Shown here: in pieces, positions 2,866 to 22,950 of the stretch
Numbering within the stretch: position 1 is the stretch's first letter
Layout of the letters: every line of letters starts with the position of its first letter
Origin: a bacterium
GTDB taxonomy: Bacteria; Verrucomicrobiota; Kiritimatiellia; RFP12; UBA1067
Reading direction: 5' to 3'
NCBI GenBank assembly: GCA_030537465.1
Contig: JAUNMP010000035.1
Span: 1 to 32,108 of the forward strand
DNA length: 32,108 bases
The notes under the pieces: generated by a model
The model's input: only the letters and a program-made list of their open reading frames with translations
The model's database searches: none
What the model was told of the DNA's origin: nothing
Position numbers and translations under genes: made by a program

Positions 2866-3720
2866 TCAAACACCCAGCATCCGCAGCTGGTCCGGACCCA
2901 AATCGCGCCACTCGCCGGGCTTCATCTCCTTGGGAAGCCTCAGCTCGCCCACCGCCACGCGCTTGAGCGACAGCACCACCAGATGCGCCGCACTGCACAT
3001 ATAGCGGATCTGGCGCTTGCGCCCCTCCCGCAGCTTGAAGCAGAGCACCGTCACGTTGTCGCTGCCCGCGGGACGCACCACCTCCACCGGCACGGGACGC
3101 GTCACGTAGCCGTCCGGCATCGTCACCGGTCCCTGGAGGATCCGCAGCTTTTCGTCGTTCCAGCGTCCCGCCGCCCGCACGATGTAGGTCTTCTCGTGCT
3201 CGAAGCGCGGATGCGTGAGCTTGAGCGTGAGGTCGCCGTCGTTGCTCATCAGGAGCAGACCCTCGCTGTCCTTGTCGAGGCGCCCCACGGGAACCAGCCG
3301 CTCCTGGATCTTTCCACGCAGGAGATCGGCCACCGTCTCGCCGCCGAACGGATCGCTCAGCGTCGACAGCACCCCCACGGGCTTGTAGAGCATAATCGTG
3401 CGTGTCTGCTCGCGCACCGCGTCGATGGGGCGCCCGTCCACGCAGATCTTCGCGGTCGCCGGATCGAACTTCAGATAAGGCTCCGTCACGACCTTGCCGT
3501 CCACAGAGACACGCCCCGCCTCGATCAGCTCCGCCGCATGCCGCCGGCTCGTGACGCCCGCATGGCTCAGAATGCTCTGGATGCGCTCGGAGCCGCGGGG
3601 GGAATGTGCCTCTCGCGGAGGCGCGGAGGCGCGGAGATGATCGGAGCCGCGGGGGAAACTCGTCTCTCGCGGAGGCGCGGAGACGCGGAGGTGTTTGTTG
3701 TTGAAATTTCTATCAGCCAT
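2866..3720 (-). CDS. RsuA/RluB-family pseudouridine synthase with repeat-encoded N-terminus
   Basis: This 284-residue enzyme converts a specific rRNA uridine to pseudouridine; the family includes RsuA (16S) and RluB/E/F (23S). An S4 RNA-binding domain (IQSILSHAGVTSRRHAAELI, then G.V.VDGKVV) spans about residues 43-95. The catalytic domain begins MLYKPVGVLSTL and carries GRLDKDSEGLLL, with the active Asp near residue 149. The ATG at 3720 is preferred over an upstream TTG that would overlap the GxxExxY gene, although its ribosome binding site is weak. Residues ~10-45, before the S4 domain, are an 18-residue segment (LRxSAPPRE..) repeated twice. It is encoded by a GC-rich DNA repeat and is not part of the usual fold. 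A Met or GTG after the repeat could in principle be used, but none is obvious. Confidence 0.88.
   Translation of the reverse strand: MADRNFNNKHLRVSAPPRETSFPRGSDHLRASAPPREAHSPRGSERIQSILSHAGVTSRRHAAELIEAGRVSVDGKVVTEPYLKFDPATAKICVDGRPIDAVREQTRTIMLYKPVGVLSTLSDPFGGETVADLLRGKIQERLVPVGRLDKDSEGLLLMSNDGDLTLKLTHPRFEHEKTYIVRAAGRWNDEKLRILQGPVTMPDGYVTRPVPVEVVRPAGSDNVTVLCFKLREGRKRQIRYMCSAAHLVVLSLKRVAVGELRLPKEMKPGEWRDLGPDQLRMLGV
3587..3694. repeat. two tandem 54-bp copies of a GC-rich repeat (core CTCGCGGAGGCGCGGAG)
   Basis: Copy 1 begins at 3587 and copy 2 at 3641. Both start TCGGAGCCGCGGGG and contain CTCTCGCGGAGGCGCGGAG near their ends. The 54-bp period equals 18 codons, so the repeat is read in frame as an 18-residue duplication at the N-terminus of the pseudouridine synthase. 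A third copy of the core in the opposite orientation lies at 4391-4417. Confidence 0.9.
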
Positions 3721-3760
3721 ATACGCTCTTCGAGTCAAGAATCCAGACTTCACAGGGCCG

Positions 3761-4342
3761 TCACCATCCAAGGGCCTCGAAGACCTGGTCGTAATTCACG
3801 CGTTGTGAGTCTTCTGCTTCATCGATCAAATCATCATCCAGCAGAGAATCCGTTCCAAGGACCTGCATGGCCCCACACGTAGAACCATCCTTCGGCAACA
3901 CGATACGCTCGTTGGTTGTGGAGAGCGAGGTCCGACACATCGCGGGGAGCTTGCCGTCAAATTGGTGGACAACACGACGGAACCCGTCCTTGAGAGAATC
4001 CATTCCGAAATTCACCACCAGACCAACCTGAAGACCCGTCAGTACCAGATAAGTTCTGACCTGCTTCATGTAGACGGGCAGAAGTTGTGGCGTCGACTTC
4101 AATTCGACAACGACCTTCCCGTCGACCAGCAGATCCAACCGGAACGCATTCTCGAAGACCACCTTCTCATATTCAAACGACACGGACTTCTGGCGTTCAA
4201 CGACATGCCCACGACGAACAAGCTCTATCATCAGGATGCGTTCATAGACCGACTCCAGAAGGCCTGGTCCAAACATCCTGTGAATCTTGACCGCCGCGTC
4301 AAGCACATCACCCGTTATGTCGTTAATCTCCACTCTTTCCAA
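3761..4342 (-). CDS. GxxExxY protein, predicted PD-(D/E)XK-type nuclease (PDDEXK_3)
   Basis: This protein of up to 193 residues carries the family signature GLLESVY (residues 27-33) after the typical N-terminus EINDITGDVLDAAVKIHRMF. The segment RLDLLVDGKVVVELK provides Asp70, Glu80 and Lys82, matching a PD-(D/E)XK nuclease core. The family (TIGR04256/PF13366) often occurs in many copies per genome and its biological role is not established. No ATG fits the start. TTG at 4342 or GTG at 4333 both give a family-like N-terminus, and neither has a convincing ribosome binding site. The last ~65 residues, after the normal family end at VVHQF, do not resemble the family and may be added sequence. The gene lies between oppositely oriented copies of a GC-rich repeat. 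Confidence 0.82.
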   Translation of the reverse strand: MERVEINDITGDVLDAAVKIHRMFGPGLLESVYERILMIELVRRGHVVERQKSVSFEYEKVVFENAFRLDLLVDGKVVVELKSTPQLLPVYMKQVRTYLVLTGLQVGLVVNFGMDSLKDGFRRVVHQFDGKLPAMCRTSLSTTNERIVLPKDGSTCGAMQVLGTDSLLDDDLIDEAEDSQRVNYDQVFEALGW

Positions 4343-4350
4343 CCCAATAA

Positions 4351-4424
4351 TCCGCGAGAGCCTTTTCCAGCCTCTCTTTTCTCTCTACTCTCTCCGCGCC
4401 TCCGCGTCTCCGCGAGAGCCTTTT
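4351..4424. repeat. inverted copy of the GC-rich repeat plus a 16-bp direct repeat
   Basis: TCCGCGAGAGCCTTTT occurs at 4351-4366 and again at 4409-4424. Between them lies TCTCCGCGCCTCCGCGTC, the reverse complement of the repeat core in the pseudouridine synthase gene. A pyrimidine-only tract (4367-4390) separates the copies. The TAA stop codon of the ThyX-like gene sits at the edge of the second copy, and the start of the GxxExxY gene is nine bases from the first. Confidence 0.85.
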
Positions 4425-4983
4425 ATTCCACGGCCCGGTACTTCTTCACCATCTCCGCGTAGGCCGGCGTGTTGACGAAGCCGCAGCACTTGAATTCGGG
4501 GCAGAATCCGCGGTAGACGCAGTCCGGCACGCAGCAGGCCGCCAGCTCGGGCTCCACCTTCGCGAGCTCGTCCACGACCAGCTTCCACGCGGCCCGCGTC
4601 TCGGGGCTCGCCTGCGAACAGAGACGCCGGCGGCTGATGAACATCACCTCCGCCGCGTTGGCGAAGCACTCGTGCTCCACCGGCGCGTCCTGCACCTTCG
4701 TCGTGCGGTCCTCGCCAGTGCGGTCCGTGCGCTGCGTCGAGACGAAATGCTCGATGCCGTATTTGTGGCGCACGAAGTGGACACTCACCCAGTATGGAAG
4801 GTTGCTCCACTTCCAGCTGACCAGCAGCTTGCGGATCGGAGAATGCTCCGCCAGGAGAATGCGCTTCTTCCACTTGGAGGAGGGCTCCTTCTGCCCCTCC
4901 GGCATGCGGATGGTCGTGCGGGCGGCATCCGCGACATCGCGCCAGCTGCCCATGATCTTGAGATATTTGAGTGTGGTATTCAT
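4423..4983 (-). CDS. thyX: ThyX-like FAD-dependent thymidylate synthase
   Basis: This 186-residue protein resembles the compact phage-like branch of ThyX, which methylates dUMP to dTMP using FAD and methylenetetrahydrofolate. Visible landmarks are EHSPIRKLLVSWKW (residues 46-59) and VRHKYGIEHFVSTQRTDR (71-88). The latter fits the ThyX motif RHRx7S, with Lys74 in place of the third-position Arg and Ser82 at the end. ANAAEVMFISRRRLCSQASP follows, and then a Cys-rich end (CCVPDC, FCPEFKCCGF). Assignment is from motif pattern and recalled family layout. An extended -10 promoter lies 24 bases before the ATG. The gene's stop codon lies in a GC-rich repeat, which suggests the repeat landed at or next to its end. 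Confidence 0.7.
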   Translation of the reverse strand: MNTTLKYLKIMGSWRDVADAARTTIRMPEGQKEPSSKWKKRILLAEHSPIRKLLVSWKWSNLPYWVSVHFVRHKYGIEHFVSTQRTDRTGEDRTTKVQDAPVEHECFANAAEVMFISRRRLCSQASPETRAAWKLVVDELAKVEPELAACCVPDCVYRGFCPEFKCCGFVNTPAYAEMVKKYRAVE

Positions 4984-22846: not shown

Positions 22847-22863
22847 TTCAAATGCCTAAAAAA

Positions 22864-22950
22864 CTCAACCTTGAACTTTGAACCTAAAACTTTGACCCCG
22901 GAACTTGGAACCTGGACCCCGGAACTTTGAACTTTGAACTTTGAACCTAC
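22864..22950. repeat. 7-bp tandem repeat cluster (TTGAACT/TTGGAAC variants)
   Basis: Most of the 100-base gap between the thioesterase stop and the trmB start is made of 7-bp units such as AACTTTG, AACCTGG and ACCCCGG, with three identical AACTTTG units in a row near 22923-22943. The array runs up to the thioesterase stop codon at 22947. No function is evident, and it leaves little room for a classic trmB promoter. Confidence 0.85.

Follow-up and report, generated by a model that had tools for sequence, protein, structure and literature searches.

Inverted short repeat arrays around GxxExxY genes point to a candidate mobile unit in bacterial operons

The GxxExxY gene of the window, by which we mean the whole 32,108-nucleotide stretch of bacterial DNA that was analysed, lies between two inverted arrays of short repeats, and we lean toward the view that gene and arms together make up a single copy of a small, autonomous mobile element, whose GxxExxY protein is inferred to act on its own arms and to drive their spread. 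The layout of the unit, its insertion and the turnover of its sites, arm families that follow nuclease lineage, arms without the gene and co-directional placement were all observed; that the arms serve as recognition sites of the nuclease is an inference, with no biochemical data behind it. To our knowledge, no role has been assigned to GxxExxY proteins, which form a common family.

Read along the minus strand, the ThyX-like gene and its stop codon are followed by the upstream arm, the GxxExxY gene, the downstream arm with its duplicate, and rlu (Table 1). TCTCGCGGAGRCGCGGAG was located in three exact copies, two on the plus strand (3611-3628 and 3665-3682) and one on the minus strand (4400-4417), just as the original prediction had described them, with two copies on one side of the gene and a third, oppositely oriented, on the other. 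With up to three mismatches allowed there were six matches, against a mean of 0.36 in shuffled sequences, none of which reached six. Each window arm has three 8-bp units, and the best ungapped match between arms extends over 28 bp. The two rlu-side copies are a 54-bp in-frame tandem duplication of a single arm, and the rlu frame (3588-3771) runs through both downstream arms (...LRVSAPPRE...LRASAPPRE...). The 16-bp direct repeat said to accompany the third copy and to touch the ThyX-like stop was confirmed, its second copy overlapping that codon. The name ThyX-like comes from reading a motif by eye and has no profile support, the protein having no Pfam or NCBIfam model match at E 0.001.

Table 1. 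Coordinates of the window unit, its host genes and a solo array in the same window
Feature	Position	Strand	Basis or remark
ThyX-like host gene	4423..4983	-	ORF; stop TAA (4423-4425) abuts the unit, gene on the unit's 5' side
Upstream arm CTCTCGCGGAGACGCGGAGGCGCGGAGA, three 8-bp units	4391..4418	-	inverted match to downstream arm, score 25
16-bp direct repeat TCCGCGAGAGCCTTTT	4351-4366 and 4409-4424 (4351..4424)	-	sequence
GxxExxY gene, predicted PD-(D/E)XK nuclease fold	3761..4342	-	PF13366 / TIGR04256, residues 8-125
Downstream arm copy 1 CTCTCGCGGAGGCGCGGAGACGCGGAG	3664..3690	+	repeat search and arm alignment
Downstream arm copy 2	3610..3637	+	54 bp from copy 1; within rlu N-terminal extension
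RsuA/RluB-type pseudouridine synthase (rlu), host gene	2866..3771	-	ORF, profile match; on the unit's 3' side
Solo period-7 array (GTTCAAAGTTC...)	22850..22948	-	resembles arms of the own genome's PF05635 unit (L199)

The GxxExxY protein (193 residues) matched PF13366 (PDDEXK_3) with 117 bits (cut-off 22) and TIGR04256 (GxxExxY) with 120 bits (cut-off 35). When 43 homologues were aligned, the invariant residues included G25, G27, E30, Y33, E80 and K82, and D70 was conserved in at least 90%, which bears out the D70...E80xK82 pattern of PD-(D/E)XK nucleases read from the sequence earlier. The AlphaFold2 model, with pLDDT above 90 across most of residues 10-130, adopts a PD-(D/E)XK fold. Its best VIA structure match was SSO0001 (4ic1, Z 9.2); archaeal Hjc (1gef) reached Z 7.2, and the nuclease domains of Wolbachia CinB/CidB were also among the nearest solved structures. 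By this modelled fold and its D...ExK residues the protein belongs to the PD-(D/E)XK superfamily; cleavage is inferred only. The last ~65 residues had been held to lie outside the family, and the profile match indeed ends at residue 125. The C-terminal tail that remains (~68 residues) was poorly predicted in the model, is missing from the closest homologues, which end just past the domain, and had no other match in 59 related genomes. A role as an anti-phage defence gene was set aside, the window protein having no match among the PADLOC models, and two homologues gave only weak Cas4/Csx19-type scores. Carriage by phages was likewise rejected, with no phage record matching and eight plasmid records matching.

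Across many phyla, the GxxExxY gene usually stands alone between two inverted short repeat arrays. Arm pairs were scored by comparing each left flank with the reverse-complemented right flank (positive at a score of 14 or more), with same-size intervals from the same loci as controls. An inverted repeat spans the gene in 73 of 82 GxxExxY genes of the window's genome and its relatives (89%), against 4 of 492 control intervals (Fisher p 8e-77). The same was seen in 51 of 78 loci from other phyla (65%), including Proteobacteria, Bacteroidota, Planctomycetota, Chloroflexota, Cyanobacteria and Acidobacteria, against 3 of 468 controls (Fisher p 6e-48); 11% of the relatives' genes and 35% of the distant ones have no arm pair at this threshold. 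In gene-family controls such a repeat spanned 1/25 ThyX-like genes and 0/23 DUF58 genes. The typical arm is made of three units of 8-9 bp. Period-9 arrays numbered 17 within 400 bp of a GxxExxY gene versus 2 out to 6 kb, and in the distant phyla 83 triple CRCRRAG arrays lay within 450 bp of the gene (97 kb) versus 28 farther away (449 kb), with none in the reversed sequence of these loci. Six GxxExxY proteins were used for the collection scan, the 43-protein alignment being too diverse, and most genomes analysed were draft assemblies.

The original prediction had tied the repeats to GxxExxY genes. The bracketing proved general, but the repeat is not one sequence, as arm families differ from one nuclease lineage to the next: CGCGGAGR in the window, and CACAGAGR, CGCAGAGR, CACGGAATA, GACAGGATT, TGTAGAACA and CGCGAATGA as further motifs. 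Arm sequence varies between units and tracks nuclease lineage rather than host genome. Arm similarity correlated with nuclease similarity (rho 0.38, equalled in 0 of 2000 permutations; 0.31 for pairs below 0.6 similarity), and the mean arm score was 15.6 for similar nucleases from different genomes, 8.4 for pairs within one genome and 6.3 for dissimilar nucleases; joint inheritance would yield part of this correlation. Only one of the four GxxExxY genes in the window's own genome bears the window repeat. The other three (loci L129, L130 and L131; C116, C336 and C375) are one subfamily, with longer, compound arms of ACGCAGA arrays and inner palindromes. Co-occurrence of gene and repeat beyond chance, which the prediction had named as a check, held both in the bracketing (less than 1% in controls) and in linked presence across 289 genomes of the phylum, where PF13366 was found in 62 of 67 genomes with triple period-8 arrays versus 101 of 222 without (Fisher p 6e-13, not corrected for genome relatedness). 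PF13366 is missing from the remaining five arm-positive genomes.

In six relatives (loci L071 and L074-L078), the thyX stop lies only ~15-24 bp from the conserved rlu start, and neither repeat nor nuclease is present, whereas the gap in the window is 825 bp and is made up of the ~0.8-kb arm–GxxExxY–inverted arm unit. The native rlu start codon is gone in the window; the conserved part of rlu starts near 3588, its 5' extension crosses the arms, and the annotated N-terminus is element-derived or mis-annotated. The ThyX-like gene is kept in 27 of 36 relatives. On this comparative evidence, the window unit is an insertion between thyX and rlu. The moxR-DUF58 gap is similarly variable, measuring 0-64 bp in many relatives. 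In G015 and G037 it is filled by a GxxExxY unit, in G004 and G006 by a PF05635 unit and in G029 by a PF05635-type unit, and G030 and G031 have array remnants there without a gene. At another site the unit is present in G002, G003 and G005, G004 has a different short array and G006 has neither. No clean target-site duplication was seen, the relatives being too diverged at all but one site (flanks ~95-96% identical). Sites with and without the unit thus exist in relatives, and the earlier suggestion that nuclease and repeats form one spreading unit gains support from bracketing, linked presence and these empty or alternative sites. Gene and repeats come and go together in operon gaps, and mobility of the unit is well supported.

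We propose a plausible scheme for this spread. The GxxExxY protein would recognise its own arms, whether in the form of folded DNA, single-stranded DNA or arrays, and would nick or cut there; repair or replication might then copy the whole unit, or the arms alone, to new sites. The long transcript stem that the arms can form would let the unit be tolerated within operons. Such a system would work in the manner of RAYT/REPIN, with a different enzyme.

Arms are also found without the gene. The window's own genome has 32 matches to the window arm pattern versus 2 to the reversed pattern, including four inverted arm doublets 141-149 bp apart. Because most copies of the window repeat in this genome stand apart from any GxxExxY gene, as solo arms or as doublets, the arms also spread without it. 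The arm family of locus L094 has dozens of members in G013 and fewer in G004 and G006; they stand alone, form inverted doublets or lie in nested pairs, and in G013 and G004 the arms persist with no cognate nuclease seen. At L348 (707-1293) and L345 (682-878) a GGAGTTT-type inverted pair sits within a CGCAGAG-type pair, and at L348 a third, CGCAAAG-type pair lies between the two, as though units insert into one another.

PF05635 genes have inverted period-7 arms in 21 of 24 cases (L172-L201, in protein operons), and the idea that the layout is exclusive to GxxExxY was rejected, as PF05635 units look alike. PF05635 is the four-helix-bundle protein of 23S rRNA intervening sequences and not a nuclease; since it shares the unit layout, the moving enzyme may therefore be shared or external. 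The main rival explanation builds on this: the unit would be mobile, GxxExxY and PF05635 would be cargo or accessory, and recognition of the arms, which can form hairpins, would fall to an external machine such as a transposase, a reverse transcriptase or replication slippage. Two unrelated protein families in one layout, the abundance of gene-less doublets and nested pairs, and the arms that remain without their nuclease are all consistent with it. It does not account for arms that sort by nuclease lineage and not by host genome, nor for the link between the presence of arms and that of PF13366, although joint inheritance could also explain both. We consider an external machine unlikely, while keeping it as a serious contender.

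Homing is a different alternative: the nuclease would cut at solo arms already in place, and repair templated by a unit would bring gene and arms into that site. At one site G009 and G011 hold the whole unit where G013 has a single solo arm, the flanks being 95-96% identical, and the left junction of the unit begins with an 11-bp near-copy of the G013 solo arm that may be an arm remnant. This is a single site, however, an identical picture would arise if G013 had lost the gene from a unit, and the empty thyX-rlu sites have no solo arm. Homing seems to us improbable.

The placement of the units was also considered in terms of RNA. Fifty of 124 units start no more than 40 bp from the stop of a co-directional upstream gene, while 8 adjoin the stop of a converging gene (p 1.6e-8), and 24 of the 27 units with close neighbours on both sides are co-directional with both; these counts are approximate, since genes were called simply as the longest open frames. 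The RNA of the unit folded more stably than shuffled sequences did (z -4.7), and in this fold the arms are paired. An element acting at the RNA level, like the 23S rRNA intervening sequences, with an arm stem cut by RNase III and a protein of regulatory or RNA function, would share the inverted ends, the ORF inside and the co-directional placement in transcribed gaps, a layout common to known elements of this type (PMC4990558). A location of the units in rRNA was rejected, as the window unit lies between two protein genes and Rfam detected no rRNA at ten related loci, where the sole match was Acido-Lenti-1 RNA. The nuclease fold is moreover unrelated to the intervening sequence protein, and an RNA role alone leaves the spread to new sites unexplained; we give this explanation little credence. 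Chance, or local repeats of low complexity near an ordinary gene that is fixed, conceivable for repeats that are short and G+C-rich, can be dismissed almost entirely, being ruled out by shuffles, by ~100-fold enrichment over same-locus control intervals, by negative housekeeping-gene controls and a reversed-sequence control of zero, and by the existence of empty sites.

Returning to the reading that we favour, of a nuclease acting on its own arms, the closest known counterpart is the RAYT/REP/REPIN system (PMC3116915, PMC2817692, PMC8266576), in which one gene also lies between inverted short repeats, singlets and inverted doublets of these repeats exist as well, mostly extragenic, and repeat families are paired with their own protein lineage. 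Spread of REPINs is thought to be driven by tyrosine transposases (PMC3116915). In contrast to RAYT, a Y1/HUH tyrosine transposase, the GxxExxY protein has a predicted PD-(D/E)XK fold; its arms are arrays of 8-9-bp units and not imperfect palindromes, and its units are co-directional inside operons. The 23S rRNA intervening sequences with an S23/IVP ORF, possibly mobile or selfish and with inverted ends (PMC4990558), are similar in their small ORF, terminal inverted repeats and long transcript stem, but GxxExxY units lie outside rRNA and their ORF encodes a putative nuclease; PF05635 units in protein operons link the two. The GxxExxY unit thus fails the defining feature of both, the rRNA location of the one and the tyrosine transposase of the other, since the window protein matched only PF13366 and TIGR04256. 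Insertion sequences and MITEs likewise have terminal inverted repeats, one gene, gene-less derivatives and empty sites, whereas the GxxExxY unit has no known transposase by profile search, no clean target duplication, and arms that vary widely within one protein family. Homing endonuclease genes also resemble it as stand-alone nuclease genes seemingly invading sites, but the GxxExxY unit occupies a variety of operon gaps and carries its own inverted arms.

No earlier description of a GxxExxY mobile unit was found in open papers, and none of those mentioning GxxExxY describes one; preprints and most subscription journals were outside the search. Nor did we find an explanation in the literature for the dispersed 8-9-bp-period repeats of environmental genomes. 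Considering all the above, we tentatively put forward a wider hypothesis, to which we would not quite commit ourselves. GxxExxY and PF05635 may be two frequent cargos within one very widespread and so far unrecognised class of mobile elements, whose hallmark is a pair of inverted arms built from short tandem arrays. In its GxxExxY branch the mobility enzyme would be the stand-alone PD-(D/E)XK nuclease itself, co-evolved with its arms, and the CACAGAGA-, CGCGGAGA- and GACAGGATT-type repeats scattered through many genomes would be its non-autonomous offspring. Our results join a protein family without a role to a class of dispersed repeats within one mobile system of many phyla, offer the nuclease's own arms as a substrate to test, and connect the nuclease with the unsolved question of where 23S rRNA intervening sequences come from. 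Annotators should also be aware that translated arms (e.g., LRASAPPRE) appear as spurious protein termini.

The solo period-7 array of the window lies between the stop of a thioesterase-like ORF, which it directly follows, and a trmB-like start; an inverted partner for it was looked for in the window and not found. GIY-YIG-like and AAA-ATPase-like ORFs, named by eye, were seen between matched inverted arrays at L170 (4094-4980) and L151 (1889-4277) and are possible further cargos. The Acido-Lenti-1 RNA (RF01687; L134, 3076-3120) adjoins a capsule-type gene cluster that bears a GxxExxY unit.
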